DNA of 64,000 nucleotides from Acidobacteriota bacterium (GCA_009838525.1 VXRJ01000010.1:98520-162519); one strand, 5' to 3'; shown: positions 6,467-61,183, numbered from the stretch's first letter. Translations and numbers: made by a program. Notes: generated by a model from the letters alone, not told the origin.

Positions 6467-6722
6467 CCGTCTCCCCCCGTTACCGGCCCCCGGGAGCCGG
6501 AAAGTCCTCAAACCCGTTCTGCGCCCCATCATTCCCCAGAACCGCTGCCTGCTTCAATGGGGAATTGCACGTCCTGCTGAAGCGGGCGCAGCATCAGCAT
6601 CGCCTGGTCCGGCCGTTCTGGCGTCGAGATTCTTAGCCCCGGTTGCCACGGATTCGCGTAATATCAAGCGATCATCAGGAGAATCCGAAGCCCACTGGGT
6701 GGGTTTCAGCAAGGAGGCCAAG

Positions 6723-7586
6723 ATGTGTGATGTGAGAACCGACGCCGACACTGCGCGGTACCTTCGTGCGAAGGGGATGACGCGCCGGGAGTTCGGGGCC
6801 GTCTCGGCGGGAGCCGGGCTCGCGTTCCTGCTCCCCCAGCCCGTGAACGCCCAAGACGTGACCGAATCCGAAATCGACGTGACGACCCCGGATGGCACGT
6901 GCGACAGCTACTTCGTGCACCCGTCCAGCGGAGCCCATCCCGGCGTCCTTATCTGGCCCGACGCCTTCGGCCTGCGGCCGGCGAAGCGGCAAATGGCCAA
7001 GCGGCTCGCGGAATCCGGCTACTCGGTCCTGGTGGTCAACCAGTACTACCGGACGCAGCGGGCGCCGATCGTCGACTCGACGGATTTCGCGGCGCTGCGC
7101 GAGACGTTGATGCCGTTGATGGGAACCCTGAACCCGGACACCCACGTGCGGGATGCACGGGCTTTCGTCGGCTTCCTCGATAGCCAGTCGTCAGTGGACA
7201 GCAACCGGAAGATGGGGACGATGGGCTACTGCATGGGCGGTCCCATCACCATGCGGACGGCGGCCGCGCTGCCCGACCGCATCGGCGCGGGCGCCTCGTT
7301 CCACGGCGGCGGCCTCGTGACCGACCAGCCGGACAGCCCTCACCTGCTGGTGCCGGAGATGACGGCCCATTACCTGTTCGCGATCGCCGAGAACGACGAC
7401 GAGAACCAGCCCGAGGCGAAGGACGTCCTGCGCGACACTTTCGAATCGGCAGGCCTCCCGGCGGAGATCGAAGTGTACGAGGGCGCGCTGCACGGCTGGT
7501 GCCCGCCCGATACGCAGGTCTACCACGAAGCCCAGGCGGAGCGGGCGTGGAGCCGCCTGCTGGCCCTGTTCGAACGCGCCCTCTGA
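6723..7586 (+). CDS. Tat-exported dienelactone hydrolase family protein
   Basis: The start at ATG 6723 is set by a strong AAGGAGG site eight bases upstream; the frame is open much further 5' but that part is noncoding in character. A twin-arginine signal TRREFGAV with a hydrophobic core follows at about residues 20-40. The mature domain (about 240 residues) has the Cys nucleophile elbow GYCMGG (C170), an acidic residue in AENDDEN (near 225) and the catalytic His in ALHGW (H257), the DLH triad. DLH enzymes open lactone rings in aromatic degradation, but many exported members act on other esters. The divergent neighbour is another exported alpha/beta hydrolase. Confidence 0.88.
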   Translation: MCDVRTDADTARYLRAKGMTRREFGAVSAGAGLAFLLPQPVNAQDVTESEIDVTTPDGTCDSYFVHPSSGAHPGVLIWPDAFGLRPAKRQMAKRLAESGYSVLVVNQYYRTQRAPIVDSTDFAALRETLMPLMGTLNPDTHVRDARAFVGFLDSQSSVDSNRKMGTMGYCMGGPITMRTAAALPDRIGAGASFHGGGLVTDQPDSPHLLVPEMTAHYLFAIAENDDENQPEAKDVLRDTFESAGLPAEIEVYEGALHGWCPPDTQVYHEAQAERAWSRLLALFERAL

Positions 7587-13098: not shown

Positions 13099-14160
13099 AT
13101 GGACCATCGTCTTCGAACGATCGCCACCGTGTTCATGGTTGCCCTGCTGGCTTCCGGGCCGGCGTTCGCCCAGAGCCAGTCCGGGGGCGCCCCGAACCCG
13201 GATCCGGACTGGGAGATGCCGCGCCTGCCGGACGGCCAGCCCGATCTGCAGGGCTACTGGACCACCCAGACCTTCACGCCGATGGAGCGGCCCGAGTATC
13301 TCGGAGACCAGGCGTTCTACACCGAAGAGGAGTTCGCCGAACTCGTGTCGCAACTGACGGTCGACGGGGCCGATCCACTGGCACGGTTCGTCATCGAGAT
13401 CGAGGATCCAGAGGAACGGGCCCGGGTTCTCGACCAGACACACCGCGACGAGAGCTACGTCCACTACGACAACGCCATCTGGCTTGCCACCCCGGTGCCG
13501 AAGGGGCTGTCGACCCGGCGTACGTCGCTGATCATCGACCCGCCGAACGGCCGGATTCCCCCGCGCAACGCCAAGGCCGAGGCGCGGGCGGCCGAGAGTC
13601 GGGCGGCCCGCGGCGACCGGGGGGCCTTCGACGGTTACGAACTGCGCCCACACAGCGAGCGGTGCCTCAACTACCGCTACAACGCGCCGCCGATGCAACC
13701 GCCCTCGTACAACGACATCCACCACATCCTGCAGACGCCGACGCACATCGTGATCTTCACCGAGCAGAGCACCAACGGGCCCCGGATCGTCCCGATCGAC
13801 GGACGGCCGCCCATGTCGGAGAAGATCCGCCAGTGGCCGGGCGATTCACGTGGGTACTGGGAGGGTGACACCCTGGTCATCGAGAGCAGCCACTTCAACG
13901 ACAAGACGGCGTGGCAGGGCTCGAGCCGCAACCTCAAGGTGGTGGAGCGGTTCACGCGCGTGGCGGACGACCATATCCACTTCACGTTCACAGTCGAGGA
14001 TCCGGACACGTGGGACCAGCCGTGGACCGCCGAGGTGCCGATCCTGTCGACCGGGGGGCCGATGTACGAGTACGCCTGCCACGAGGGCAATCACGACATC
14101 CGCCACATTCAGGAGGTTTACCGCAACATCGAGCGGCAGGAAGCCGAAGCTGCGCGGTAG
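13099..14160 (+). CDS. exported DLQGxW-family protein, copy 1
   Basis: I know no function for this family. The 353-residue protein has a signal peptide (cleavage near AFAQ), then PDLQGYWTTQTFTPMERP, a middle Cys in SERCLNYRYN, the stretch GDSRGYWEGDTLVIES near residue 250 and MYEYACHEGNHDI near 325. A second gene at 17618-18616 has the same signatures in the same order. The fold is probably beta-rich, and the conserved Cys, His and Glu (ACHEGN) could bind a metal or substrate. GGGAGG lies upstream of ATG 13099. It diverges from the hydrolase-propeller gene and is convergent with the small gene at 14161, whose stop is the next base. Confidence 0.85.
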   Translation: MDHRLRTIATVFMVALLASGPAFAQSQSGGAPNPDPDWEMPRLPDGQPDLQGYWTTQTFTPMERPEYLGDQAFYTEEEFAELVSQLTVDGADPLARFVIEIEDPEERARVLDQTHRDESYVHYDNAIWLATPVPKGLSTRRTSLIIDPPNGRIPPRNAKAEARAAESRAARGDRGAFDGYELRPHSERCLNYRYNAPPMQPPSYNDIHHILQTPTHIVIFTEQSTNGPRIVPIDGRPPMSEKIRQWPGDSRGYWEGDTLVIESSHFNDKTAWQGSSRNLKVVERFTRVADDHIHFTFTVEDPDTWDQPWTAEVPILSTGGPMYEYACHEGNHDIRHIQEVYRNIERQEAEAAR

Positions 14161-14652
14161 CTACCTGGGCGTCCAGTAGAACACTTCCCAGGTGTGTACC
14201 GGTTCGTTGGCGCCGGGGATGATCTCGCCGTCGAAGTCGTACCCCATGCTCATCCCGTTCTTGGCGGCGTAGTTCTCCAGGTACGGGATCCGCTCGTCGC
14301 CGAGGATTTCGGTCGCCGTGAGCGCATACGTGGCGTCGCCGATCCGGATCCACCCATCCGCGCGCCCGCCCCGTACCCGGGCGGCCCAGTAGCCGCCATC
14401 GGGCCGGGTGGCGGTGACGATTCCGCCGTCGTCGGTCGAGTACACGATGCGGATCACGAAAGGCGGAAAGCCGGCCAGCTTGAGGAGCACGACCCCCCCG
14501 TCGTTGACCGAATTCCAGTCCGCGGGCGGCGGCGTCAACTCACCGCCGATCACCACGCCGGGGAACCGCTCGTAGGGCGCCGTAACAGCGTATGCCACGG
14601 CGGCGCCTCCGACCAGGAAACCCAGCACGAAATACACGGTTGTCTTCGACAT
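14161..14652 (-). CDS. small membrane-anchored protein, unknown function
   Basis: This 163-residue protein has an N-terminal membrane anchor (VYFVLGFLVGGAAVAYAV) and a beta-rich domain. The pattern FPGVVIGGELTPPPADWNSV, then a DGG segment, YWAARVR and DGWIRIGDATY reappears loosely in the 180-residue protein two genes upstream (15092-15634), so the two look like distant paralogs. The DW...N...YW.RV order hints at a split-barrel fold of the flavin/PNPOx-like kind, which is a guess. It is the last gene of the co-directional minus-strand run. Confidence 0.7.
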   Translation of the reverse strand: MSKTTVYFVLGFLVGGAAVAYAVTAPYERFPGVVIGGELTPPPADWNSVNDGGVVLLKLAGFPPFVIRIVYSTDDGGIVTATRPDGGYWAARVRGGRADGWIRIGDATYALTATEILGDERIPYLENYAAKNGMSMGYDFDGEIIPGANEPVHTWEVFYWTPR

Positions 14653-14684
14653 GCGATCCTCTGCGTGATCCTACCGGCCAGGAA

Positions 14685-15086
14685 TCATCGATCGAAAGTC
14701 CACGTGCGGGGCTCGCGTCCCGGCTCGGCCCGCGCCTCCTCGACCACGACGCGGGGCGTCTCGCGGTGACGGTATCGCAGGATCCATTTCAGGCCGGCCC
14801 GGTTCGCCTCGGGCACCGGATACTCGTGCGTCGCGTGCTCGGGCCCCTCGAAGACGTTGATCTCGCAGATCTCCTCCTCGGCGCACAGGGGGATGGCCCG
14901 CTCGATCCAGTCCTCCACGGCGGCCCCGGGCGTGACCCAGGCTCCCCAGGCGTGGGAGGTTGTCCCCACCCAGCGGAAGTCGACGGGTTTGGCGTCCGCC
15001 GCATCGCGATCCTGCGCGGCGCGCGCGTGATCCGCGACCGTCGGCGCCAGGCTCAGCCCCAGCAACAAACTCAGCGCCAGCTTCAT
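14685..15086 (-). CDS. small secreted protein, unknown function
   Basis: The 133-residue protein starts at ATG 15086, where MKLALSLLLGLSLAPT gives a signal peptide with cleavage near ARAA. The longer open frame upstream overlaps the previous gene and is not coding. The mature part has two Cys (LCAEEEIC) that could form a disulfide, plus EHATHEYPVPEANRAG. It starts five bases after the stop of the upstream gene, so it belongs to the same operon. No family recognised. Confidence 0.65.
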   Translation of the reverse strand: MKLALSLLLGLSLAPTVADHARAAQDRDAADAKPVDFRWVGTTSHAWGAWVTPGAAVEDWIERAIPLCAEEEICEINVFEGPEHATHEYPVPEANRAGLKWILRYRHRETPRVVVEEARAEPGREPRTWTFDR

Positions 15087-15091
15087 GACGG

Positions 15092-15634
15092 CTACCCGCG
15101 GGACTCGACCCTGAACGTCCACCAACTCTCCGGCCGCGGGGTGTCGAGCGGAGGCGGTTCGCCACCGCCCCCCGGCTGCCGTGCCTGTACTTCCGGCTTC
15201 TGCAGCTTCCGAATCCGAGCCGCCCAGACCCGATCGAGCGAGGCCGGGTCCACCTCCCGGTTCAGGAAGACGGGGTAGACGACACCGTCGAGGCGGAGCC
15301 GCCCTGAGTGGTCCTCCCCGACTCGCGGACACCAGTACTTCTGCGCGCCGACCGAGCAACTGATGAAGAGCGCGCCATCCGGCGTCGCCATGCAGTTGAC
15401 GTTCACGGAATGCGGTCTCATCCAGATGCCGATCTGGATCGCGCACAAATCGACGTCGTTCGCGAAGCTCCAGTCGGTGACCGGCTCCTCGTGGGCGTCG
15501 CCCAGCAGCACGAAGCCGGGCGTGGTCTCGCACGGACAGTTCACGGTCCAGACGACACCCCCGGCCAGGACGACCAGCACCAGCGTGGCCGCGATTCCGA
15601 GCAGGTTCTTCCTTACGATCGACTCTGCGCTCAT
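15092..15634 (-). CDS. membrane-anchored protein, distant paralog of the gene at 14161
   Basis: The 180-residue protein starts at ATG 15634 with AGGAGGGTGAGC upstream, which decides against the longer frame to 15721. A single hydrophobic helix (LLGIAATLVLVVLAGGVVW) anchors a domain with TPGFVLLGDAHEEPVTDWSF, ATPDGALFISC, YWCPRVG and a Gly/Pro-rich C-terminal tail. It contains several cysteines (NCPC, ISC, WCP), more than its relative at 14161. The function is unknown; the position suggests a part in the same secreted catabolic set. Confidence 0.7.
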   Translation of the reverse strand: MSAESIVRKNLLGIAATLVLVVLAGGVVWTVNCPCETTPGFVLLGDAHEEPVTDWSFANDVDLCAIQIGIWMRPHSVNVNCMATPDGALFISCSVGAQKYWCPRVGEDHSGRLRLDGVVYPVFLNREVDPASLDRVWAARIRKLQKPEVQARQPGGGGEPPPLDTPRPESWWTFRVESRG

Positions 15635-15742
15635 GCTCACCCTCCTGCGGTCCCCGTTATACACCGGTTCCTGGAACGCGTCCGAGATACGAGTCTCGTC
15701 CGCTCCGCGAGGCGCGCGCAAACGGATTCCCCCGAGGCATGG

Positions 15743-16264
15743 TTACTCCTCGACCTTCCGGTACTTGCGCAGCAGCGTGCCGTTCGGCAGGTAGGAAAAG
15801 TACCCGTCCGCGTACTCACGACGGTCGTTCGTCCCCTCGAGAACGACCGCATCCCCGTCGCGGGCAATCGTGAATCGCCGAGGCTCGCCCCCCGGCCGCA
15901 CCGTGACGGCGGCTTCCCCGGCGGAAGGTCCGCTCGCGGTTTCAATCCGGTCGTACGTATAGCTCCAGTGGGAGGCGTCCATCTCGTAGGTGCCGTAGCC
16001 AATGAACGACTCGAATCCAGCCGCCGTCTCGCGGTGGAATGTGGCCACGACGACACCGTCGTGGTTCACCCAGCGACCGCCGGCCGCCGGCGGACGGAGG
16101 ACCTCGCCATCGACGTGCCACTCCACGAGTTCCCAGGTCCCTTCGAGGAGCGACCGTAGTTCCGCGGGCGCCTCGGTCTGCTGGGCCAAGCCGGGCCCTT
16201 GGCTGACGAGACACACCCCTCCCACTACCAGCGCCACGAAACCTCGTGCGGCCGCGCGGGTCAT
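15743..16264 (-). CDS. secreted lipocalin-like domain protein
   Basis: The 173-residue protein has a signal peptide (cleavage near GLAQQ) and a domain starting LLEGTWELVEWHVDGE, the GTW strand that opens lipocalin-like barrels. FIGYGTYEMDASHWSYTYD and GRWVNHDGVVVATFHRET fit the successive beta strands. Such proteins bind small hydrophobic molecules or have no known activity. Its ATG overlaps the stop of the upstream alpha/beta hydrolase (ATGA), so it is translated together with that enzyme. Confidence 0.75.
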   Translation of the reverse strand: MTRAAARGFVALVVGGVCLVSQGPGLAQQTEAPAELRSLLEGTWELVEWHVDGEVLRPPAAGGRWVNHDGVVVATFHRETAAGFESFIGYGTYEMDASHWSYTYDRIETASGPSAGEAAVTVRPGGEPRRFTIARDGDAVVLEGTNDRREYADGYFSYLPNGTLLRKYRKVEE

Positions 16265-17616
16265 GCCCTCTCCCGGTAGATCTGATCGAGCACCGGCAGA
16301 AGGTGCTTGCGGAAGCGCGGATAGTCATCGCTCATCGCGAAGTGCGACCCACCCTCGATCACGTCGTAGGTGGCCCCGTCGATCAGTGCGGCCAGCGATT
16401 CCGCCGGCCCTCTTGCCGTCGGATCGTATTCGCCACTGAGGAGGTGGACGCCGACCCGGGAAGTGTCGATGGTGTGCGCCTTCCCTCTGAGATCGTGCTC
16501 GACCGAAAAGTAGTAGAGGTCGCCGCCAAAGATCCCGGGGCCGCCCTGGCTGTAGATCCAGCCCGTCTCCCTCCTGAACGCCTCGCGGGCCTCCGGGGAG
16601 GTGATCATGTACATCCGGGCCCCGATGTAGGCGGTGCTGTTCTGCGGATGGCTGAAGGGGCTCACATACGGCTTGCCCTTGTCCTCGACTCGCCCGCCCG
16701 CAATCGATGAATTGATACCGATCACCGCCCGGAACTTGTCGGGATGGTAGTAGGCGAGGTCGGGGGCGAGATAGCCACCCACCGAGCAGCCCATGTAGAC
16801 GGGGCGATCGAGGTTCAGCGCGTTGGAAATCGCCACGATGGAATCCATGAGATGCTGCGTGTCCATTCGGTACTCGGTGGCCCACCATCGGTCCGTGGTC
16901 GGCGGGAGCGACCGCCCGTGGAACGGCAGGTCGTAGGCGATCATCCGGAACCGTTGCTGAAGCTCGCGGTCCTCGAGAAGGTGCCGCCATTGCCGGCTGT
17001 CGGAGCCGGCGGTGTGTTGGAGCACCATCGGCAGACCCTCGCCGGCTTCTTCGAAGTACACGCGGTACTGGATACCTCGGATCCGGACGTAGACGTAGCG
17101 GCCGACGATCGAATCGAACTCCCGGTCGACCTGCTCTCCCAGAAGTTCCGGAACCGGCGCCCCCAACGCGGCTCGAACCAGCGCCGCGAGGCGCAGGATG
17201 GCCGCCTGGTAGGGCCAACGGTGATCGGTGTCGTCTCCGGAGGTTTGAAGACCGTAGTCACCGAATCCTTGACGCCAGGCGTCAACCGGGCCGGCGATTC
17301 TGACGTCGAAGTCCGCGCTGGGATCTGTCGGAACGACCTCGACCACCCGTCCGCCACGGACGGTTACACCATAGTGGTAGGTGTCGATTCCAACCTGCAC
17401 CAGTGCGTTCCACTCGTGGGCGGTGATCTCGAACTCCGGATCCGAATTGACGAGAGTCACGAGAGCGTGCGGATCGAATCCCTCCAGCTCCGACTGCGCG
17501 GGGGCAGGCGCGCGGGCCGGCGCACGTGCCGTGGCTGGACTCTCCGCGAGCGTCACGGACAGGCCAAGGGTGGCGCCGCTGGCGCGGACCATGAATGCTC
17601 TGCGATTGATAGTCAT
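16261..17616 (-). CDS. Tat-exported alpha/beta hydrolase
   Basis: This 451-residue protein has a twin-arginine signal (MTINRRAFMVRASGATLGL) and a Pro/Ala-rich linker. An N-terminal domain of about 130 residues precedes the hydrolase fold. In the hydrolase, QHTAGSDSRQW is the oxyanion region, YDLPFHGRS follows, GCSVGGY is the Ser nucleophile elbow, SGEYDPT carries the acid and GGSHFAMSDD the His. Tat export implies a folded or cofactor-bound precursor. The gene lies 1 bp from the DLQGxW gene upstream and overlaps the lipocalin-like gene downstream. It probably cleaves an ester or C-C bond of a substrate handled by the neighbouring exported enzymes. Confidence 0.85.
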   Translation of the reverse strand: MTINRRAFMVRASGATLGLSVTLAESPATARAPARAPAPAQSELEGFDPHALVTLVNSDPEFEITAHEWNALVQVGIDTYHYGVTVRGGRVVEVVPTDPSADFDVRIAGPVDAWRQGFGDYGLQTSGDDTDHRWPYQAAILRLAALVRAALGAPVPELLGEQVDREFDSIVGRYVYVRIRGIQYRVYFEEAGEGLPMVLQHTAGSDSRQWRHLLEDRELQQRFRMIAYDLPFHGRSLPPTTDRWWATEYRMDTQHLMDSIVAISNALNLDRPVYMGCSVGGYLAPDLAYYHPDKFRAVIGINSSIAGGRVEDKGKPYVSPFSHPQNSTAYIGARMYMITSPEAREAFRRETGWIYSQGGPGIFGGDLYYFSVEHDLRGKAHTIDTSRVGVHLLSGEYDPTARGPAESLAALIDGATYDVIEGGSHFAMSDDYPRFRKHLLPVLDQIYRERA

Positions 17617-17617
17617 G

Positions 17618-18616
17618 CTAAGGGTTCCCCGTTTCGGCGCCGGGTGGCATTGACCCTTCCTCTACACGGGCGCCCCTGAGGAGGTTCACCATCCCGTAGT
17701 TTCCCTCGTGGCACGCGTACTCGTACATGACGCCCTCGGTCATGGGCATGTCCAGAGCCGCCGTCCAGGGGCGCGTCCAGGTCGCCGGGTCTTCAACCGT
17801 TACCTCGTAGCGCAGGGTGCCGCTGTCGAGACGCGAGAAGCGTTCGACCAGACGCAGGTTGGAGGTCGACCCTCGGTAGGGTGTTCTGTCGGTGAAGTTC
17901 ATTGTCTCGACTACGAGCGTGTCGCCCTCCCATCGCCCACGCGAATCGCCCAGCCACTGCCGGATGCCTGGGTCGAGATGTGGGGTTCCGTCGAGCGGAA
18001 TGACCCGCGTCTCATGCACCATCTCATGCAGAATCGCCACGTGCGTCGGGGTCTGGAACAGTTGGAAGTTGTTGTTGTAGACACCCCCGAGTCGTGGCAG
18101 AACCCGCGTTATACAGCGCTCCCAGAGATTCCGGTCCTCGGGGCCGTTCGAGGTACGTGCGCGACCGCCCCCGCCGCCGCCAGGCTGGCGTGATCCCAAA
18201 CGCGCCTCGCCCTCCTGAGAGAGCGGCGGAAGTCGACCATCCGCAGGATCGACGATCAGCGCCGTGCGGCCGTCCGAGAGTCCACGATCCCACCAAACCT
18301 GGTCGTACGCGAGCGCGACGTCTCGCTCGGGCGTGAGCTCGCTCCTGCGACTCGACTCAGCGAAGGTTGTCGCTTCCAGGTTGGCTTGGGCGATTTCCTC
18401 CTCTGTCAGGAACTCCCTGCCCGCGTACTCTTCGGGGCGCTGGAGCGGCGTCGCAGTGCCGTGATTCCAGACGCCCTGCAGGTCCGGGTCGCCCCACGCC
18501 GTCCGCAACGATGGGGCGCCGGAATCCGCGGATGATTGTTGTGCGACGGAAAGCCCGGGTGCGAGCAGGGCGCTCAGGAATACGGCGACCGGCGCCGTGC
18601 AACGTCTTCGTGACAT
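17618..18616 (-). CDS. exported DLQGxW-family protein, copy 2
   Basis: The 332-residue protein is a paralog of the one at 13099. A signal peptide (cleavage near SVAQ) is followed by DPDLQGVWNHGTATPLQRP, ERCITRVLPR, LGDSRGRWEGDTLVVET and VMYEYACHEGNYGM, all in the same order. It has a strong AGGAGGT site before ATG 18616. A Gly-rich loop (RQPGGGGGGRART) in the middle is not shared with copy 1. The gene sits between the PQQ dehydrogenase and the Tat hydrolase with gaps of 21 bp and 1 bp. The function is unknown; location with exported oxidoreductases and esterases suggests a substrate-binding or hydrolytic role. Confidence 0.85.
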   Translation of the reverse strand: MSRRRCTAPVAVFLSALLAPGLSVAQQSSADSGAPSLRTAWGDPDLQGVWNHGTATPLQRPEEYAGREFLTEEEIAQANLEATTFAESSRRSELTPERDVALAYDQVWWDRGLSDGRTALIVDPADGRLPPLSQEGEARLGSRQPGGGGGGRARTSNGPEDRNLWERCITRVLPRLGGVYNNNFQLFQTPTHVAILHEMVHETRVIPLDGTPHLDPGIRQWLGDSRGRWEGDTLVVETMNFTDRTPYRGSTSNLRLVERFSRLDSGTLRYEVTVEDPATWTRPWTAALDMPMTEGVMYEYACHEGNYGMVNLLRGARVEEGSMPPGAETGNP

Positions 18617-18637
18617 CTCTTACGACCTCCTGCTGTG

Positions 18638-20782
18638 TTACCGGATTGCGTCTTCCGGCAGGCGCAGCGCCACGAGCGCTCCCGGCTGCCCGCGCCGCGC
18701 GCTCCCCGCCTGCATGAGGATGTACTGCACTCCCTCATCGAGGTACGTCATCATGCCGTACTGGCCCGGAATGGGCACCTCGACGCTGGCGACGATCTCG
18801 CCCGTCCGCTTGTCTCGGGCCCGCAGCAGCGGCTGGCCGTTCTCACTGAGCTCCGCCTCGCCCCGCAGATCCTCGGTGGTCTGCACCAGCAGATCGCCCA
18901 CCACCATCTGGATGGAATGCCCCGAACCGCCCAGGTTGGGCAGATCGACGCCGGCCAGACGAGGGTGGTTCCGGAACCGCTCGGGAGTCTCCCCGATTGG
19001 GATCTCCCAGAGCCGCTCCCCCGTGTTCATGTCGTAGGCGGACAGTGCCTGAAAAAGGGGACGGTACACCGGCAGCCCGTCGATCTGGGCCGGGAACTCA
19101 GCCGGTCCGCCGGGCGCCCAGGCCGCCACGGTCGTGCCCGTGGTGGGCGTGTGCCGCTCCCGGCCCCGCCAGGCTTCGGCCGACCGTCCGGGCAACCCGC
19201 GCGGCTCATCGACGCCGTTGGTCGGCACCATGAAGCGCGGCGCGCTGCACGCCCGGCTGTGAGACGCGTACAGGATCCCGGTCGTCGGGTCGGCCACCGG
19301 CGGCTTGTAGATGTTGACTCCGCCCATGCAACCGATCACGTTCCGGTAGTCGTTGTCGTGCGGATACGGCAGCGGAGGCATGTACAGGCCTCCGACCCGG
19401 AACTCGCTCAGAATCTCCAGCGCCTCGCGCTTCAGCTCCGGCGTGAAGTCGAGCACGTAGTCTTCGGTCAACCCATCGGCAGCGATCGGGTCGAGCGGTT
19501 CCGGCCGGGTCGGATACGGCTGAGTGGCGGCCGTGTAGTTGCCCGGCACCTGGGTCTGCATCACCGGTCGCTCCTCGATCGGCCAGAGCGGCTCACCGGT
19601 GGCCCGGTTGAAAGCGAAGATGAGCCCCTGCTTGGTGTTCTGGATGAGCGCCGGCACCCGCGCGCCGTCGACCGTCAGGTCCATCAGGATCGGCGCGGTC
19701 GGTATGTCGTAGTTCCACTGGTCGCTGCGGTGGATCTGGTAGTGCCACCGCCGCTCCCCGGTCGCCACGTCGAGGGCCAGAACGCTTCCGCCGAACAGGT
19801 TGTGGCCCGGCCGATGGCCCGTGTAGGACTGGACCGTCGAGGCGTTGGTCACCAGGTAGACGAGCCCGAGCTCGGGGTCGGCCGAGGCTGGCGCCCAGGT
19901 GGACATGTCGCCCGACCAGCGCCACGCGTCGTTCTCCCAGGTCTCGTGGCCGTATTCGCCGGGACGGGGGATGATGTGGAACTTCCACAGCACCTCGCCG
20001 GTTCGGGCATCGACACCCATGATGTCGCCGGGCACGTTCTCGATGCGGGTCTGGTCGTAGCTCGGCTCATGCCCCACCAGCACGACGACCACGCCGTTGA
20101 CCACGATCGGGGGCGACGACGCGGTGACCATCCCGAGTTGCTGGGGAATGCCATGGCCGGGGTCATACGGGCCGTCCCACGCCAGCCAGGGGCCCCAGTC
20201 GGCTACCAGCGGCGGAATGAGGTCCACGACCCCGTTCGGGGAAAAGGCGTCGACGCCGACCGGCTCGCCCCACCCCTCGAGCGGTCGCCCGGTCTCGGCA
20301 TCCAACGCCCAGAGAAAGAAGGCGGGCGACGTGATGAAGACGACGCCCCGGCCGTCCACCTCCGCATACGCGACACCCTTGCCGAAGTCGCTGCGCGGCG
20401 ATCGGAGATAACGCATCGTCTCCGGCTCACGGAAAGTCCAGAGGGTCTCGCCGGTCGCGGCGTCAATCGCCACCACCTGCCGCCGCTGGCCGGCCACGGT
20501 ATAGAGCACGCCGTCGGCGAACACCGGCGTGGACCGCACGGTGTATTCCATCCCGGGCCCGAAGTTGTCGCCTCGCCAGATCCAGGCGACCTCCAGGTCG
20601 GCAAAGTTGCCGGCGTTGATCTGCGTGAGCCAGGGGTTGGAGCGGGTGTGGCCGGCGTCGCCGCCCAGATAGCGCCACTCCCCGTCCGCGACCCCCGGAA
20701 GCTGCGCGGCGACCGGGGAAGTCATGCCGAGCAGGCAGACGATTGCCGACAGGATGCCGCTTGTCGTGCGGTAACGCTTCAT
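18638..20782 (-). CDS. PQQ-dependent (quinoprotein) dehydrogenase
   Basis: The 714-residue exported protein starts at ATG 20782, preceded by GGAGGAG, with a signal peptide ending near PVAAQ. It is an eight-bladed propeller of the PQQ alcohol/glucose dehydrogenase type: RYLGGDAGHTRSNP at the start, DAATGETLW, DVATGERRWHYQ and DMNTGERLWEIP tryptophan-docking blades, and KQGLIFAFNRATGEPLWPIE near residue 380, typical of PQQ sugar/alcohol dehydrogenases. It has no CxxCH motif, so it carries no heme and needs an external electron acceptor; the cytochrome c-like gene nearby is a candidate. No PQQ-synthesis genes are in the window. Confidence 0.9.
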   Translation of the reverse strand: MKRYRTTSGILSAIVCLLGMTSPVAAQLPGVADGEWRYLGGDAGHTRSNPWLTQINAGNFADLEVAWIWRGDNFGPGMEYTVRSTPVFADGVLYTVAGQRRQVVAIDAATGETLWTFREPETMRYLRSPRSDFGKGVAYAEVDGRGVVFITSPAFFLWALDAETGRPLEGWGEPVGVDAFSPNGVVDLIPPLVADWGPWLAWDGPYDPGHGIPQQLGMVTASSPPIVVNGVVVVLVGHEPSYDQTRIENVPGDIMGVDARTGEVLWKFHIIPRPGEYGHETWENDAWRWSGDMSTWAPASADPELGLVYLVTNASTVQSYTGHRPGHNLFGGSVLALDVATGERRWHYQIHRSDQWNYDIPTAPILMDLTVDGARVPALIQNTKQGLIFAFNRATGEPLWPIEERPVMQTQVPGNYTAATQPYPTRPEPLDPIAADGLTEDYVLDFTPELKREALEILSEFRVGGLYMPPLPYPHDNDYRNVIGCMGGVNIYKPPVADPTTGILYASHSRACSAPRFMVPTNGVDEPRGLPGRSAEAWRGRERHTPTTGTTVAAWAPGGPAEFPAQIDGLPVYRPLFQALSAYDMNTGERLWEIPIGETPERFRNHPRLAGVDLPNLGGSGHSIQMVVGDLLVQTTEDLRGEAELSENGQPLLRARDKRTGEIVASVEVPIPGQYGMMTYLDEGVQYILMQAGSARRGQPGALVALRLPEDAIR

Positions 20783-20859
20783 CGTGCTCCTCCGGCTTAC
20801 CGGCTCGCTACAGATAGCACGGAAGGGAGGAAAGCGCCGCCTCCGGTCGTGGGCCAGGG

Positions 20860-22434
20860 TCACGGCGCCGTCGCGCAGCGAAAGCTCTGCTCGTTGTTCA
20901 CGTCGCCGCTGCCGTCGTACTCCGCCACCTGCGGATACGGACAGACGGGACGGGTGAGCGTCACCTGGCCGTCCGCATCGAGCTTGGACGCCACGAGGCG
21001 CTCCGGAGCGTGGCCATCCTCGACCCAGGCGCGGATCGCCTCCACCCAGTCGACGCGATCCGGCCCGGGGCCACCGGCGCAGTGCAACACGCCCGGCAGC
21101 ATGTAAAGGCGAGCGTAGTCGCGGGCCGAGGGATCACCCGCCTCAAGCTGCTCGTAGTAGTCGATCGTTCCCTCCGGCGCGAGGGCCAGATCCGACCAGC
21201 CGGTCCAGTAGATGATCTTCCCGTTGCGGTCACGGAAGGCGCTCAGGTCGGTGCTGGTCGCGTTCAGGATGTCCGCCGTGGCGGCGGTGTCCTCCGCCCA
21301 GGTGGCGAAGTCGTACTGCGTGTAGTCCCACGCCGGATCGCTGAAGACGAAGTACTTGAACAGCTCCGTGCCGAACCCGAACTGGGCGTTCGGGACGCCC
21401 GTGGCCCGACGCGCGTCGGCCGCCACGACCCACGAGTCCCATCCGCCACGGTCGTTTTCACCACCGTAGTTGAAGCCGCTATAGACCCGCTCGCCGTTCG
21501 AGGTCGGACCCTCGTACACGCGCTCGATGGCCGCGACCTGGGCCGCCGTCACGCAGCCGGCCGCCGCCACCTCATCGGGGCAGCGGGGCAAATCCGCAGG
21601 CTTGAAGTCGCACCGTCGCGGATCCGTCATGGCGCCATCGACTACGCCGTCGTCGCCGTCACACGCGGCCAGAATGCTTGAACCGAGCAACTCCAGAGTG
21701 TCCGGTGTCAGGACGGGCGAGTCGAGGTCGCCGGTGGGATAGATCGCCTGCTGGTTCTGTACGAAGCCGGCCGCGATGCCGGTCCAGTGATAGGCGGGAG
21801 CGGCGGCGACGATACCGTCGAAGTCCTCGGGGTACCGCTGCGACTCCATCATCGCCTGTCCGCCGCCACGGCTGCAGCCGACGAAGTAGGAGTAGTCGGG
21901 TCCGCGGTCGTAGTAGTGGCCGATGATCGACTTCGCGGCCTCGGCGGTCAGGTGCACCGCCCGGTGTCCGAAGTTCTCCTGGCGCTCGGGATGATTCAGC
22001 GCCCAGGACGCCTGGATGCCGTTTCCTTCGTGCCCGGTATCGGTCCCGACGGTCGCGTAGCCACGCTCGAGGGGGCCACCGCCGTAGGCATAGAGACCAC
22101 GGGCCTGATTCTGCACGCTGCCCACGAACCCACCACCGCCGCCCATCAGGAAGCGTCCGGTCCACGCATCGGGTTCCGGCAACAACAGCTCGAACTTGAT
22201 CTCGGTCTCGATCACCCCGCTGACGCGGCAGTGGGCTGGCACACCGTCCGTGGCCTCGACCGATTCGGCGGCGTCTATGCGCATGTCGATCAGGTCGAGC
22301 GCCGCCAGATCGCCGCAGGCGTTGACCGGATCCGCGGCGTCCGCTCCATCCGTGCCGGAGGCCGCGCAAGCGGCGGCGCCGGACAGACTGACGGCGGTGA
22401 GCAGCGCCAGGAAAGTTCGATTCATCGACGGCAT
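20860..22434 (-). CDS. tannase/feruloyl esterase family lipoprotein
   Basis: ATG 22434 is set by GGGAGGATTT upstream. The 524-residue precursor has a lipoprotein signal ending at Cys23 (SGAAAC). The tannase-family CS-D-HC motif is visible: nucleophile elbow GCSRGG with C187-S188, and LHCAGG with H451-C452, so a disulfide links the two catalytic residues. The lid between them has further Cys residues (ACDGDDGVVDG resembles the Ca-binding loop of this family). It would hydrolyse aryl-acyl esters such as galloyl or feruloyl esters at the outer surface or in the periplasm. It lies upstream of the PQQ dehydrogenase, co-directional, 77 bp apart. Confidence 0.9.
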   Translation of the reverse strand: MPSMNRTFLALLTAVSLSGAAACAASGTDGADAADPVNACGDLAALDLIDMRIDAAESVEATDGVPAHCRVSGVIETEIKFELLLPEPDAWTGRFLMGGGGGFVGSVQNQARGLYAYGGGPLERGYATVGTDTGHEGNGIQASWALNHPERQENFGHRAVHLTAEAAKSIIGHYYDRGPDYSYFVGCSRGGGQAMMESQRYPEDFDGIVAAAPAYHWTGIAAGFVQNQQAIYPTGDLDSPVLTPDTLELLGSSILAACDGDDGVVDGAMTDPRRCDFKPADLPRCPDEVAAAGCVTAAQVAAIERVYEGPTSNGERVYSGFNYGGENDRGGWDSWVVAADARRATGVPNAQFGFGTELFKYFVFSDPAWDYTQYDFATWAEDTAATADILNATSTDLSAFRDRNGKIIYWTGWSDLALAPEGTIDYYEQLEAGDPSARDYARLYMLPGVLHCAGGPGPDRVDWVEAIRAWVEDGHAPERLVASKLDADGQVTLTRPVCPYPQVAEYDGSGDVNNEQSFRCATAP

Positions 22435-22495
22435 GGAAATCCTCCCTACAAGCACTCGCGGGTGCAGCCACGAGCGGCGTCCAGCGTCGGCGCCC

Positions 22496-23296
22496 TTACC
22501 CGGGCGGCCGCTTGATCTCTATCGTAGCCGTGAGCCATTGGTCGCCGCCGCCGAGCTCCCACGAGACCGGGCCGGAGGCGCCGGCCGACGCGTGACGCGT
22601 ATCCGAGACCGCCAGCCCCACGGCACGCTCGATCTGGACGCATGCGGACAACGGCGGGCCGCAGCCGTTCGTCGGATCGTCCGCCGCGGGGGGAAACGAG
22701 ACGATGCTCAGCCGTACCCGCGGAGGTTCGTCTGTCAGCGCCACCGCCCCCTGGAGAAACCGGCCGGCGTCGTCCAGTTCGCCCACGGCGATCCGCAGGG
22801 CGCGGGACCCGTCCCGGGTGGTTTCGACCACCGGCGCGTTCGGGGTATCCGACGACCCGCGCGTGTGCCCCGCCGCGCCGATCGGCGCGTTCACATCGAC
22901 ATTCGAGAACCGCACCACGGCAGCTGCCGCCTGCCGCCTGCCGCTCCAGGAAAAGGAGGCGGTGGACTCCGATCCGTCGGCGATTCTGTAGAAGACGGCC
23001 AGTTGACACGCGGTCCCCTGTCCATCCGCCTGGCACGTGGCCCCGTTGAAGCCACCGAAGCCGGGCACCGCCGTCCATCCGTCGGGCCCGGACGTATTCG
23101 GATTCCCCGGCACGCCGAGGATCGCCACGAGGAGATCCCCACTCTCGTTCTCCCCTGGCGGCACCGGGACCGACACCTCCGCCGCTCCACTCACGCCGGT
23201 CTGGCCGATCGCGACGCTCTCGAAACTGGGACTCGGACCGCATGCGGCCAGAAGCGCACTGGTCAGGACGCCCACGCTAGCGAGCCTTCCGGTCAT
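22496..23296 (-). CDS. lipoprotein with beta-sandwich domain, unknown function
   Basis: The 266-residue protein starts at ATG 23296 with a lipoprotein signal (SALLAACGPS). The segments GDLLVAILGVPG, DGWTAVPGFG and AVFYRIADGSESTASFSW match the surface beta-sandwich repeats often seen in large exported or phage-like proteins. Toward the end, DQWLTATIEIKRP closes the sandwich. No catalytic motif is visible; it may bind carbohydrate or sit on the cell surface. It is co-directional with the neighbours but separated from the cytochrome gene by 244 bp, where a promoter could lie. Confidence 0.7.
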   Translation of the reverse strand: MTGRLASVGVLTSALLAACGPSPSFESVAIGQTGVSGAAEVSVPVPPGENESGDLLVAILGVPGNPNTSGPDGWTAVPGFGGFNGATCQADGQGTACQLAVFYRIADGSESTASFSWSGRRQAAAAVVRFSNVDVNAPIGAAGHTRGSSDTPNAPVVETTRDGSRALRIAVGELDDAGRFLQGAVALTDEPPRVRLSIVSFPPAADDPTNGCGPPLSACVQIERAVGLAVSDTRHASAGASGPVSWELGGGDQWLTATIEIKRPPG

Positions 23297-23540
23297 GGTG
23301 CCTCCCTTGGAAAGCCCGCACGCCACGGCCTCGAACGGGGCGGATTGCCGGTCATCATCACGCGTATACCCCCGGAGGGCGCGGTGCACCGAGCTAACTG
23401 CACGATATCGACACGAGGGGCGATCGTCAATCCCGAACCGGCATGCCGGCGCATCGCGCCGAAACCACTCAGGTCCGCCGTTCCTCCCCGGCGGTCAATG
23501 GGTCCGGCGGATGCCGGCCGCGCTGCAGACGGGGCGCTGC

Positions 23541-24938
23541 CTACTGCGACTCTTCCGCCGAGCCGCCGGCGCCCTCGCGGGCCGCGGCCAGTTCGTCGTA
23601 CTCGGCCTCGTCGAGGTACGTGATGCCGATCCAGGCGTGGGACATCTCGTCGACCCCCCGCGCCCCGAACACGACCCACTGATCCGGATCGGGGTTGATC
23701 CGGTTCGCCGCCGTGTTGTCGAACTTCGAACGTAGCATCAGGACGGTCCCCCTGGGCAACAGTGGCTGCGCGTCTTCGTCGTAGACGTAGGCGATCTGCC
23801 AGTTATGGTCGTAACGGTTGACGCTGCTGAGCAACTCGCGGCGGCCGTCGGGGTAGAGCGCCGTCATCGACATTTCGGTGCCCCGCATGTGCATGTGAGG
23901 CCGGAAACTCTGGATCAGCGCCGGCTCCTCCATGACGTACTGGTCCTCGAGCACCAGATGTCCGTGCGGCGGAATGAGGATGTCGCTGGCGCGCAACCTC
24001 TCGCGATGCGTGCCGTCAACATAGAACTGCCGCTCGCCGGCAGTCACCTTCTCCGGCACCTCGTCCTCGGGGTAGAGCCACACGCCGACCTGGGCCACCT
24101 CCGTCACCTCCTCGCCCACCGGGAAGTAGTGGAGATTGAAGCGGACCGAGCCAGGACCCGGCGGCAGCAGCTTGCCGACCCCCTCCGGCAACACGTCCCA
24201 ACGCTTGCCGATGCCCATCCCGACCAGTCGCACCGACGGCGGTCGCTCCTCCCCGTCTGCCGGCTCCTCGCCCCGCAACACGGCGTGCCCGTGATGCGTG
24301 ACCTTGATTCCGACCGGATACGACGGCTTGAACTCCGCCGCGCGAATGTACCGGGGCACGTCGAAGCCCTCGAACTCGATCTCCGGCTCCCACCATTGAT
24401 CCTGTCCGTTGGCCACCACGGTGTAGGGCGTCGACCGAACGATGAAGTCCGGCGGACGGCCAAGCACGGCCTGCACCTCCCAGACGTCGGCCGGCGGGAA
24501 CTCCAGCGGTTCCGGCAGGTCGGCCGGATCACCCTCCGGCGCTCCCGCATCCACCCATCGGACAATAGTGCCGATCTCGTCCTCGGTCAGGGAGATGTCG
24601 TTCTTGAAGGCCTGGATGCCCACGGTCTGGTCGAGGTGCCAGGGGGGCATCAGGCGTCTCTCCACCCGGTCCCGGATGCTGCGCGCCCAGGGACGCGCTT
24701 CCCGATAGGTGAGCAGCGACATCGGCCCGATGCCGGTGGGCTGGTGACACTGCTGGCACGAGCGTTGCAGGATGGGCGCGACGTCCCGGCTGAATGTGGG
24801 CTGCGCGTCGGCCGCCGACGGCGCGCCCGTGCCGCCGGACTGCGCGAGAGCCCCGCCGGCGCCCGCGAGCAGCAGCGCCACGGCCAGCCCTGCGCCGAGA
24901 CTTCCGCGCCAGCCAATCAATCTGTCCGACTTCGCCAT
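23541..24938 (-). CDS. exported cytochrome c / copper monooxygenase-like protein
   Basis: ATG 24938 has GGGGGAG upstream; the longer frame to 25130 lacks a signal peptide. The 465-residue product has a signal (cleavage near ALAQ), then a c-type cytochrome domain with CQQCH (61-65) in the DVAPILQRSCQQCH context found in planctomycete/acidobacterial cytochromes. From about residue 150 the sequence looks like the C-terminal fold of type II copper, ascorbate-dependent monooxygenases (PHM/DBM family), with VTHHGHAV and PHMHMRGTEM as likely copper ligands. No N-terminal copper domain is evident. Electron delivery from heme to copper in one chain is an attractive but unproven reading. Confidence 0.8.
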   Translation of the reverse strand: MAKSDRLIGWRGSLGAGLAVALLLAGAGGALAQSGGTGAPSAADAQPTFSRDVAPILQRSCQQCHQPTGIGPMSLLTYREARPWARSIRDRVERRLMPPWHLDQTVGIQAFKNDISLTEDEIGTIVRWVDAGAPEGDPADLPEPLEFPPADVWEVQAVLGRPPDFIVRSTPYTVVANGQDQWWEPEIEFEGFDVPRYIRAAEFKPSYPVGIKVTHHGHAVLRGEEPADGEERPPSVRLVGMGIGKRWDVLPEGVGKLLPPGPGSVRFNLHYFPVGEEVTEVAQVGVWLYPEDEVPEKVTAGERQFYVDGTHRERLRASDILIPPHGHLVLEDQYVMEEPALIQSFRPHMHMRGTEMSMTALYPDGRRELLSSVNRYDHNWQIAYVYDEDAQPLLPRGTVLMLRSKFDNTAANRINPDPDQWVVFGARGVDEMSHAWIGITYLDEAEYDELAAAREGAGGSAEESQ

Positions 24939-24973
24939 GAGCGTCTTCTCCCCCTGCCAGCTCCGATCGGCGG

Positions 24974-25861
24974 TCACGGAACTACGGTAACCGGCAGGAA
25001 CCCGTTGGTCCAGCAGCACTGGAACTCGAACTCCCGGATCACGTTGAACGCAAGCACCCGTAGCAGATAGTCGCCAGGTTCGGCGAAAGTCGCCGTGGCA
25101 GTGACCTTCGCCCCACCCTCCTGTGCCCAAGCGTCCGGCTCGACCTCGGCGGTCCGTTCGACGAACGTGACGTCACCCGGGCCCTGGTGCTTGAACCACT
25201 TGACGTTGATGGGACGTTCGTCCTCGGCGGCCGCGGCGTCGCGAGCCACCCAGGCGCCGAGATCGAGCGGCGCTCCCGCCTTCGCCTGGAGGCGCTTGCC
25301 GGTAATCCCCCTGGGCCCGCGACCAGCCGGTCCGTCCAGCGCGAAACGCAGCAGCGGTGACACGGTCGACCGTCCCGGAAACTCCCAACCGGCCAACTCA
25401 TAGGCGGGGCTGGTCAGCCGCCCCGGCACCGAAAGCGTCTGCCCGCGGACGTGCAGCGTCCAGACCACGTCGCGATCGCCGAAATCCGCCGGCACCGTCA
25501 CCGTGAAAGCGCCCCAGTGGCGCCGGTCGCTTTCCGGGACCGGCTCGAACCGCGTCGGCTGGCCGCCGTCGAACTCGGCTGGCGCGATGAAGTTCTCGGG
25601 CCCCAGCGGGATCTCCAGGGTTTCCTTGGTGTTCACGTTGAAGTAGCCGAACGACAGCTCGAACGTGCCGTCAGGGTTCCGGTACCACCCCTCGAAGATG
25701 GGCACCACGGGTCCGCCCGACGGCCGCAGCAACTGCACGTCGAACTGCGTCTCGCCCGGGTTGGCGACCCGCCGCTCCGAGGCGCGCTGCGCTGCCAGAT
25801 CGGCGCCGCCGAGGGCGCTGGCCACCGCGAGCGCGAGCACGAGCGTTCCTGTCGGTCTCAT
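24974..25861 (-). CDS. exported protein paired with the copper monooxygenase-like gene
   Basis: The 295-residue protein has a signal peptide (cleavage near DLAAQ). I recognise no catalytic motif. Segments such as NPGETQFDVQLLRPSGGPVVPIFEGWYRNPDG and AEPGDYLLRVLAFNVIREFEFQCCW suggest beta-sandwich modules; a CC pair near the C-terminus could bind metal or form a disulfide. It is 35 bp upstream of the cytochrome/copper gene in the same direction, so it is probably the first gene of the run and a partner protein for that enzyme. Confidence 0.75.
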   Translation of the reverse strand: MRPTGTLVLALAVASALGGADLAAQRASERRVANPGETQFDVQLLRPSGGPVVPIFEGWYRNPDGTFELSFGYFNVNTKETLEIPLGPENFIAPAEFDGGQPTRFEPVPESDRRHWGAFTVTVPADFGDRDVVWTLHVRGQTLSVPGRLTSPAYELAGWEFPGRSTVSPLLRFALDGPAGRGPRGITGKRLQAKAGAPLDLGAWVARDAAAAEDERPINVKWFKHQGPGDVTFVERTAEVEPDAWAQEGGAKVTATATFAEPGDYLLRVLAFNVIREFEFQCCWTNGFLPVTVVP

Positions 25862-26064: not shown

Positions 26065-29000
26065 ATGCGGCAACACCACGTCACCCTGTCGGTACTGCTG
26101 GCTAGCGTTCTCGCTCTGAACGCGGCGCACTTGGCCGCGCAGGCGGGGACGACGACCGGGATCATCCGGGGCACTGTCAGCGATCCGGCGGGCGACCCCG
26201 TGCCCGCCGCGGTGATCGTCATCCAGAACCGGGACACGGACCTGGTGACGACGGTGGTGACCTCCGGCTCTGGGACGTTCGTGCGTACGCTGCTGCCGCC
26301 GGGAGCCTACGACCTGACGGTGGCGCCGGCCACCGCGGGATTCGGCACGGAGCGAATCGAGGGCGCGGTTCTCCGTGTGGGCGAGACGCTCGACCTGGAG
26401 GTGGAGCTGCGCGTCGTGGCGGCGGAGACGGTGACCGTCGTCAGCAAGCTGCCGTCGCCCGTCGACACGACGGACGTCACGCGCTCGCAGCGGATTCGGG
26501 AAGACGTGGTGGACGGGCTGCCGAGCAACGGCCGCAACTTCCTGAACCTGACACTGCTCACGCCCGGCACTTCCATCTCGCAGGGGCCGGACGGCGACGA
26601 GCTCAACATCGCGGGGCAGCGCGGCATCTTCAACAACTTCATCGTCGACGGCGCCGACTTCAACAACCCCTTCTTCGGGGAGCAGCGCGGCGGGCAGCGG
26701 CCCGCCTTCACCTTCAATCAGGACGCCATCGAGGACCTGGTGGTGGTGAACCAGGGTGCGACGGCGGAGTACGGCCGCTCCGCGGGCGGGTTCGTCAACG
26801 TAATCACGAAATCGGGAACCAACGTGTTGACGGGCTCGGCCCACTATTACGGCCAGTGGGACGAGATCGCGGCGCCCTTTCCGGCTGCGCGCGGCGGTGA
26901 GAAACCCGATTTCGGCCGCAACCAGGCGGGCGCTACGCTGGGCGGTCCGCTCGTCCGCGACCGGGCCTTCTTTTTCGTTGCGTATGACCAGCAGGAGTCC
27001 GACGAAACCAAGCAGTCAACCCGCCATGTGGTGAACCGGGCGAACCTGGAACGGCTCGATCAGTTCCTCCAGACACGTTGGCCGGGCCTGTTCGACGGCG
27101 AGTTCGGGCCGATTCGGCGCACCGACGACGCGCGGTCGCTCCTCGCCAAGGTGGACCTGAACCTGGACGGCCGGCACCAGGCCTCCGTCAAGTACAACTA
27201 CACGTGGGCGGAGCAGGTGAACGGCACGTTCGACGTCGACGCCTGGGGAGCGTCGGCCAACGGGATCGAAGGCGGGTACTCACACGCCCTCAACGGCAGC
27301 CTCCGCTCCCTGCTAACCAACGCGCTCTCCAACGAGTTCCGCATCCAATGGGCACGGGAGGACCGGCCACGGCGGTACGACGGCCCGGTGCTGCGCGGCG
27401 CGCGGACTGCCGGCCCGCCACAATTCGACCGGCTGGGCGGGCGGCCGTTCCCAGACATCTCGATGGACTTCGCCGACGGCTTTCGGATCGGGCTGCCGTT
27501 CTTCCTTCCCGTCGATCCCTACTTCGACACCCGGCTTCAGGTGGTCGACAACCTCTCGTTCGCCGCCGGCAGTCATCTCTTCAAGGCGGGGTTCGAGTAC
27601 AACCGGACCCACGCGGAGCAGCAGTTCGTCGGGCTGGCGAACGGCCGCTACATCTTCGATTCGGTCGACGGCTTCATCGACTTTGTGACGCACGGCAACC
27701 ACTACGTCACCTGCTCCGACGGATCGTCCAGCGCCCTGGGCGTCTGCGCGCCGGGGGCGGACGTGGCAGGCCCTGTGCTCCTTTACCTGCAAGCCGTGAC
27801 CGTGCCTGGAATTCCTTCGAACCAGCTCGGGGCGCAGGCGCTTGATACGCAGGAACTGGGCGTGTTCATTCAGGACACCTGGCAGCCGCACGACCGCGTG
27901 ACTCTGGACCTCGGGCTCCGCTGGGAAGGCACCTGGCACCCGAAGGTCTTCGTCGAACCGCAGGACGCTTTCTTCGCGCCGTACCTCGACGACCCACGCT
28001 TTCCGTCCGATGGCCGGATTCCTGACGACTTCGACAACTTCCAGCCGCGCGCCGGCGTAGCCTGGGACGTTGCCGGCGATGGCCGGACGGTAGTGCGTGG
28101 AAATGCCGGATCCTATGTGGCGCGGATCCCGATGCTCGTTTTCGCGCAGCACCGGTCGACCAATGGCGCCTTTCAGCAGACTCTGTTCCGCAGCAGCGCC
28201 GACGCTCCGGTACTCGGCCCCGTGCCTTCCATCGACCATCTCATCGACGCTTCCACGACACCCCCGTTCCTGCCGGACATCCAGGTTGCCGATCGCGACT
28301 TCGAGCTGCCGCGCACCTGGTCGTTCAGCACCGGCGTGGACCGGGATCTGGGCCGCGGCGTCGCGGCAAGCGCCACGTTCATCCACGCGAGGACCGACCA
28401 CCTGTTCCGGTTCGTGAACCGGAACGATCCGGCCTTCGGCTCCCCGTTCGGGCTAGGCACCCATCCCTCCGGAGGCGGCATCAACGCGCTGACCGTCGCC
28501 GAGAGCAGCGCGCGCTCGCGGTATTCCGCCCTCACCCTCGGACTGCGCGGGCGCGGCGCGGTGCGCAGCCGGCCGGTCACTTTCGAGACCCACTACACGC
28601 TCGCCTTCGACCGCTCGGACGACGACAACGAGCGCGATCCGTTCACCCTGCGGTACGCCGACGCCAGCAACCTCGCGCCGGAATACGGATGGTCGGATCG
28701 TGACCGTCGACACCAGGTGAGCGGCTACCTGCTTATTGCCCTCCCGGGTGACCTGCAGCTCAACAACGTGGTCCGCTACCTCTCCGCCTCGCCTGCCTCC
28801 GAGTCCTGCGCCAACCGGGGCATGCGGGCGGCACAGCCGTCGGACCGCATTTGTGCGGACGGCACCATTCTCACGCGCAACACGCTGCGGCGCGACAACG
28901 CGTTCTTCACCTGGGACATCCGGTTCTCCCGGCGCTTCACGCTTCGCAACGGCGCCGTCGTAGAGCCGCTAGTCGAGGTGTTCAACCTGACGAACGCCGA

Positions 29001-29112
29001 CAACTTCCTCGACAGCGCGCACGGATCGTTGCTCTTCAACTTCGACGGCGCACTACGCAGCGGCCTCGGCGATACGCGCCGCGGCCAGGTGGGGCTCAGC
29101 GTCCGGTTCTGA
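26065..29112 (+). CDS. TonB-dependent receptor with carboxypeptidase-regulatory-like domain (Oar-like)
   Basis: This 1015-residue outer-membrane receptor has a signal peptide (cleavage near HLAAQ), then a regulatory-like beta-sandwich (IIRGTVSDPAGDPVPAAVI, about residues 33-115). A plug follows, with NGRNFLNLTLLTPG and VVNQGATAEYGRSAGGFVNVITKSGTN (residues 180-250). The remaining 750 residues form the beta barrel and end in a terminal Phe (VGLSVRF), as outer-membrane assembly requires. Such proteins take up large or bulky substrates. It diverges from the exported catabolic run across about 200 bp, so it may import its products. No TonB or SusD gene is nearby. Confidence 0.92.
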   Translation: MRQHHVTLSVLLASVLALNAAHLAAQAGTTTGIIRGTVSDPAGDPVPAAVIVIQNRDTDLVTTVVTSGSGTFVRTLLPPGAYDLTVAPATAGFGTERIEGAVLRVGETLDLEVELRVVAAETVTVVSKLPSPVDTTDVTRSQRIREDVVDGLPSNGRNFLNLTLLTPGTSISQGPDGDELNIAGQRGIFNNFIVDGADFNNPFFGEQRGGQRPAFTFNQDAIEDLVVVNQGATAEYGRSAGGFVNVITKSGTNVLTGSAHYYGQWDEIAAPFPAARGGEKPDFGRNQAGATLGGPLVRDRAFFFVAYDQQESDETKQSTRHVVNRANLERLDQFLQTRWPGLFDGEFGPIRRTDDARSLLAKVDLNLDGRHQASVKYNYTWAEQVNGTFDVDAWGASANGIEGGYSHALNGSLRSLLTNALSNEFRIQWAREDRPRRYDGPVLRGARTAGPPQFDRLGGRPFPDISMDFADGFRIGLPFFLPVDPYFDTRLQVVDNLSFAAGSHLFKAGFEYNRTHAEQQFVGLANGRYIFDSVDGFIDFVTHGNHYVTCSDGSSSALGVCAPGADVAGPVLLYLQAVTVPGIPSNQLGAQALDTQELGVFIQDTWQPHDRVTLDLGLRWEGTWHPKVFVEPQDAFFAPYLDDPRFPSDGRIPDDFDNFQPRAGVAWDVAGDGRTVVRGNAGSYVARIPMLVFAQHRSTNGAFQQTLFRSSADAPVLGPVPSIDHLIDASTTPPFLPDIQVADRDFELPRTWSFSTGVDRDLGRGVAASATFIHARTDHLFRFVNRNDPAFGSPFGLGTHPSGGGINALTVAESSARSRYSALTLGLRGRGAVRSRPVTFETHYTLAFDRSDDDNERDPFTLRYADASNLAPEYGWSDRDRRHQVSGYLLIALPGDLQLNNVVRYLSASPASESCANRGMRAAQPSDRICADGTILTRNTLRRDNAFFTWDIRFSRRFTLRNGAVVEPLVEVFNLTNADNFLDSAHGSLLFNFDGALRSGLGDTRRGQVGLSVRF

Positions 29113-55798: not shown

Positions 55799-55805
55799 CG
55801 GACTG

Positions 55806-59488
<3,683 letters not shown>

Positions 59489-61159: not shown

Positions 61160-61183
61160 ACATTCTTCAACATGTGTGGAAAA
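61152..61183. promoter_or_regulatory. palindromic pair of DnaA boxes at dnaA 5' end
   Basis: Perfect 12-bp inverted repeats TTTTCCACACAT (61152-61163) and ATGTGTGGAAAA (61172-61183) are separated by 8 bp. Each outer nonamer, TTTTCCACA, fully matches TTWTNCACA, and they point in opposite directions. The left one covers the GTG start candidate of dnaA. This should bind DnaA strongly and repress dnaA, or form part of the origin. Confidence 0.65.

Follow-up and report, generated by a model that had tools for sequence, protein, structure and literature searches.

The closest described relatives of the protein at the center of this locus are PHM and dopamine beta-hydroxylase (DBH), copper type II ascorbate-dependent monooxygenases. 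Both are familiar chiefly as animal enzymes that draw their electrons from ascorbate; DBH carries a DOMON domain at its N-terminal position. A gene that we call g2, part of a run of eleven genes in an Acidobacteriota genome, encodes a protein with the same two-domain fold and the same pattern of predicted metal ligands, three His for the CuH site and two His plus a Met for the CuM site. It differs from PHM and DBH in being bacterial, in carrying an N-terminal heme c domain, in lacking disulfide cysteines and in having an adjacent partner, g1, and its identity to them is only 14%–16% over the aligned structure. Two further genes in the run belong to described families. First, g5 shares with the E. 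coli Gcd-type Ln/Ca PQQ dehydrogenases the full PF01011 propeller, the equivalents of Lys493 and Trp404, and the second Asp of the WDxD motif; unlike Gcd, it has Asn in place of Asp466 and lacks the N-terminal membrane domain. Second, g4 matches the PF07519 tannase/feruloyl esterase family over its full length, and the GCS and HC parts of a CS-D-HC type motif can be read directly from its sequence; it differs from that family in being a lipoprotein, and its genomic context is not conserved. Searches of open-licence papers for bacterial PHM/DBM-like enzymes turned up no description of g1-g2, which is weak evidence for novelty.

The window, meaning the whole 64,000-nucleotide stretch of DNA that was analyzed, comes from a genome (G000) of 4.29 Mb in 38 contigs that is 97% complete. 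The nearest named relatives are metagenome-assembled Vicinamibacterales/Acidobacteriota, and the isolate names of these relatives point to ocean and sponge samples. At one end of the window (53213–64000), gyrA, gyrB, dnaN and dnaA, named from their translations, lie side by side; this is probably the chromosome origin region, and it has lower GC (0.61) near 58–62 kb. The eleven genes span 14161–25861 and are named g1 (25861) to g11 (14161) in transcription order. The genes, with their two neighbors, are as follows.

26065–29112, plus strand: divergent Oar-like TonB-type outer-membrane protein (PF25183, 5e-71; CarboxypepD_reg; weak Plug)
24974–25861, minus strand: g1, secreted 295-aa partner protein with an Ig-like C-terminal domain (alignments A1/A5)
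23541–24938, minus strand: g2, a mono-heme cytochrome c domain behind a signal peptide, followed by putative PHM/DBH-class copper monooxygenase domains (Pfam below cut-off, profile, Foldseek, VIA)
22496–23296, minus strand: g3, lipoprotein with lipobox LLAACG
20860–22434, minus strand: g4, tannase/feruloyl esterase family lipoprotein with a GCS...HC motif (PF07519, 2e-117, full-length)
18638–20782, minus strand: g5, propeller of PQQ-dehydrogenase type in which Asn replaces the catalytic Asp (PF01011, 4.9e-133, residues 63–715)
19712–19714, minus strand: the Asn of g5 at the catalytic Asp position (E. coli Gcd D466), from sequence comparison
17618–18616, minus strand: g6, exported DLQGVW-motif protein, from its sequence; no Pfam match
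16261–17616, minus strand: g7, Tat-exported alpha/beta hydrolase (PF00561, 2.6e-15; orthologs of 85%–86% identity in G023 and G017)
15743–16264, minus strand: g8, exported lipocalin-like protein (81% identity, after g7 in G023 and G017)
15092–15634, minus strand: g9, small membrane-anchored protein, paralog of g11 (82%–83% in G023 and G017)
14685–15086, minus strand: g10, small exported protein whose match in relatives is the C-terminal domain of an amidohydrolase-like protein of ~590 aa
14161–14652, minus strand: g11, small membrane-anchored protein, paralog of g9 (reading frame, similarity to g9)
13099–14160, plus strand: convergent DLQGYW-motif protein downstream of the run (G017 carries an 87% ortholog in its own g7-g10 region)

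A first-pass annotation of this DNA had described eleven minus-strand genes with short gaps or overlaps, nearly all with export signals, and a TonB receptor diverging at one end. Reading frames, codon-position GC and, for g1–g10, homologs in other genomes agree with that layout; the g11 model rests on its reading frame and its similarity to g9 (29% identity, E 6e-7). Two other frames in the run, 22446–23243 and 23293–23679, were rejected as off-frame, the real gene there being g3. The gaps from g1 to g11 are 35, 244, 61, 77, 21, 1, −4, 108, 5 and 32 bases, such that the run is tight (all other gaps ≤108) apart from the 244 bases between g2 and g3. A scan for promoters and terminators found a single promoter-like site in that gap, at chance level, and no terminators. 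All eleven genes begin with an export or membrane-anchor signal, assigned by eye rather than with a predictor: Sec signals in g1, g2, g5, g6, g8 and g10, a lipobox in g3 and g4, a twin-arginine signal in g7, and an N-terminal membrane anchor in g9 and g11. The analysis bears out the copper/heme protein with its partner, the tannase-family esterase, the PQQ-type propeller and the alpha/beta hydrolase, and the diverging receptor is an Oar-like barrel. For g8, no family match exceeded the cut-off, and the lipocalin-like label is the first-pass reading. Among the smaller proteins, g9 weakly resembles DUF2255. The g10 domain occurs as a C-terminal fusion to an amidohydrolase-like protein at L105:13580–15367 and L107:9497–11272; in the window, g10 is a separate gene and has a signal peptide of its own.

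Is the run a conserved unit? Comparison with 27 further genomes in the family of the source genome, all from other genera (nine in total), indicates that it is mostly a lineage-specific assembly and not a conserved pathway. Orthologs of g2 (65%–88% identity) are found in 18 of these genomes, and g1 precedes g2 in every ortholog locus whose contig reaches far enough. The other neighbors vary. For example, g5 directly follows g2 only in G008, G022 and G026 (89%–90% identity; one genus), several kb separate g2 from a downstream g3 ortholog (70%–85%) in G003, G018 and G011, and a tannase lies 6 kb from g2 in G006. Tannase orthologs (62%–86%) are present in most family genomes, usually amid unrelated genes. 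The order g7-g8-g9-g10 recurs in G023 and G017 (78%–86% identity); in G023 the block shares its contig and strand with g1-g2, at a distance of ~21 kb. A decayed C-terminal remnant of g5 lies directly before g7 in these two genomes (L107:14361–14507, and L105 just upstream of 10541), which is evidence for an older g5-g7 adjacency. Thus, sub-blocks g1-g2(-g5) and g7-g10 recur, and the full set of eleven occurs in no family genome of another genus whose neighborhoods were read; a conserved eleven-gene operon is rejected from the neighborhoods of g1-g2, g4 and g7. Loss of gene order in relatives, which the first-pass annotation had named as grounds against its idea, thus applies to the eleven genes as a whole, and does not apply to these sub-blocks. 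Taken with the g2-g5 adjacency, the g5 remnant makes it possible that the window holds pieces of a g1-g2-g5-g7-g8-g9-g10 series of older date, interspersed with g3, g4 and g6 and found together only in the source genome.

Our preferred reading, to which we give a probability of roughly two-thirds, is that the run consists of lineage-specific exported genes around a constant g1-g2 pair, with g2 a heme-fed oxygenase of the PHM/DBH class and g1 its obligate partner. The strongest competitor, somewhat less probable than an even chance, is that exported genes have piled up passively in this run, without shared function, which would be compatible with a real g1-g2 module. Consistent with a pile-up, the source genome has 185 PQQ_2 domain matches and five tannases, g4 among them, and the blocks g1-g2, g4 and g7-g10 are separable. 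Against it, the g1-g2, g2-g5 and g7-g10 adjacencies recur, and all eleven genes lie on one strand.

The class assignment of g2 draws on its fold and on the following positions, with residue numbers counted from 24911.

24744–24758, minus strand: CxxCH heme c motif (CQQCH), invariant in alignment A2
24648–24650, minus strand: Met (MPPW), invariant in A2, possible axial heme ligand
24291–24296, minus strand: His-His pair, predicted CuH ligands 1 and 2, invariant in A2, aligned to HH of DBH
24129–24131, minus strand: His, predicted CuH ligand 3, invariant in A2, aligned to His of DBH
23889–23897, minus strand: HxH (HMH), predicted CuM ligands 1 and 2, invariant in A2, aligned to HTH of DBH
23643–23645, minus strand: Met of a DEM motif, predicted CuM ligand 3, invariant in A2 and in 97% of 38 homologs

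The predicted CuH site is therefore His206, His207 and His261, and the predicted CuM site His339, His341 and Met423. Across 27 homologs, with identities as low as 31% (alignment A2), CxxCH and all six ligand positions are invariant; in 38 homologs they are 95%–100% conserved. The N-terminal domain has invariant Met residues as well as CxxCH. When the g2 family profile is compared with solved structures, the best match is DBH (4zel; E 0.0024, weak on its own), and the alignment covers five of the six ligands (HH, H and HxH), the putative CuM Met (M423) being placed from the DEM motif and conservation only. A phmmer search of solved structures with the g2 sequence alone gave no match. Two consecutive PHM-type beta-sandwich domains are found in an AF2 model of g2 by both Foldseek and VIA; the model is of moderate confidence (mean pLDDT 69, pTM 0.61). 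Foldseek hits 1–28 are all PHM (E 4e-10 to 2e-7), with TM-scores of ~0.5–0.57 over the PHM length, and VIA alignment gives Z 15.1 for DBH (259 residues, 4.0 Å), 13.5–14.7 for PHM and 8.0 for the next unrelated fold. In Pfam, Cytochrome_CBB3 and Cu2_monoox_C both fall below the cut-off (16.6 bits versus 23 for the latter; of 27 homologs, 15 reach E ≤0.1 with it), and g2 gives no match to the N-terminal Cu2_monooxygen model. The only cysteines in g2 are the two that would bind heme, meaning that disulfides of the animal-enzyme kind are absent. Several ligands are missing from some distant relatives (e.g., L073), and some members of the superfamily may thus be non-catalytic. Overall, g2 appears to combine a mono-heme cytochrome c and a PHM/DBH-class copper domain in one chain, which would make it a bacterial cousin of the animal enzymes. 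The first-pass annotation had an alcohol oxidized through PQQ and heme/copper; with a fold and ligands of the monooxygenase type, the copper protein is more than an electron acceptor for PQQ.

The partner protein, g1, is less readily classified. Its AF2 model is confident only for about residues 165–295, the C-terminal Ig-like half, and a fold search with it gave scattered Ig-like matches with TM-scores <0.6 and no clear relative. Closer homologs share a CCWTNG motif near the C-terminus; a scan of relatives using all g1 paralogs found no conserved stretch, and a scan restricted to orthologs did succeed. The pairing of the two genes is far more regular. In the source genome, 14 g1 homologs each have a same-strand g2 homolog beside them. 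In a set of seven genomes representing three families, a g2 homolog adjoins 84 of the 88 g1 homologs; the usual order is g2-g1, the two share a strand in 79 cases, and chance would give ~0.1 adjacencies per genome or fewer. Many g2 homologs have no g1; the share that does is approximate, the lowest-scoring g2 matches having been omitted from this count. BD2-11 Gemmatimonadota also have the pair, as do MAGs labelled as Gammaproteobacteria, and g2 is patchy within Acidobacteriota (22 of 119 sampled genomes) and multi-copy in a few families. This constant adjacency suggests that g1 is a physical partner of g2.

How might such a protein work? The fold, the conserved ligands, the adjacency of the two genes and the makeup of the run are observed; copper binding, oxygenase chemistry, an electron route and a physical g1-g2 interaction we infer along the following lines. 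First, g2 would act as an exported, periplasmic copper monooxygenase with CuH and CuM sites. Second, by analogy with PHM and DBH, CuM would bind and activate O2 and oxidize a substrate C–H bond, leading to hydroxylation, and CuH would store an electron. Third, electrons would enter through the fused N-terminal cytochrome c, replacing ascorbate. Fourth, the role of g1 would be that of an obligate partner outside the cytoplasm, whether as a subunit, a substrate-binding protein or a copper-loading protein. The substrate may differ between g1-g2 copies. The esterase and the hydrolase encoded nearby may have related substrates, with no tie of their genes to g1-g2 across genomes. A broader proposal, that several Acidobacteriota families carry ~13–27 copies per genome of a heme-wired, ascorbate-independent PHM/DBH branch with a partly Ig-like partner, acting as extracytoplasmic C–H hydroxylases, seems to us evenly balanced between right and wrong. 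Alternatively, g2 could be a copper/heme electron carrier or copper-handling protein that is not an oxygenase, with g1 as an anchor or chaperone. The Pfam scores below cut-off, the moderate model confidence and the very high copy number would fit such a role; both copper sites, including the CuM Met, are nonetheless fully kept across very divergent copies, and the whole two-domain PHM architecture is retained, so we consider it improbable.

A role for g5 in PQQ-dependent oxidation is doubtful, given the Asn at its catalytic position and the state of PQQ synthesis genes in the source genome. The Asn is found in all g5 orthologs (~90% identity) and also in homologs at 46%–57%. The first-pass annotation had suggested looking for pqq genes: pqqC has no match in the 97%-complete source genome, and pqqE has none above the cut-off, whereas pqqC is above the cut-off in 10 of 18 other family genomes searched. 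The case for g5 as an active PQQ dehydrogenase is thus unsupported, although the host may still take up PQQ. Some ocean genomes are reported to carry up to 70 Ln-PQQ-DH genes, and three Acidobacteria genomes are named among the most enriched (PMC11996626); the 185 PQQ_2 matches of the source genome are in line with these.

These results bear directly on the first-pass proposal of a single pathway for cleaving aryl esters, oxidizing the released alcohol through PQQ and heme/copper, and importing products, a scheme built from family names and unlikely as stated. Genes of the DLH (6699–7586) and CMD (1374–2582) families are indeed present in the window, but they lie 6–12 kb outside the run. One operon for degrading tannin- or ferulate-type aryl esters, passing from tannase to PQQ enzyme to heme/copper protein with import by the Oar/TonB protein, would suit the single direction, the short gaps, the presence of tannase and PQQ families, and the g2-g5 and g5-g7 traces described above, but it is the least probable reading, and a very improbable one, because the set is absent from all other genomes examined, the tannase normally lies elsewhere and belongs to a family that acts on other esters as well, the catalytic Asp is missing from g5, neither pqqC nor pqqE turned up in the source genome, and the 244-base gap could split transcripts.

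What do these results mean more broadly? First, PQQ-type propellers in such genomes should be checked for the catalytic Asp before they are called active dehydrogenases. Second, if the preferred reading of g1-g2 is true, the heme-attached bacterial branch would be a tractable system for electron delivery to two uncoupled copper sites. Third, it would point to extracytoplasmic oxygenases of a new group among marine and sponge-associated bacteria that have not been cultured.
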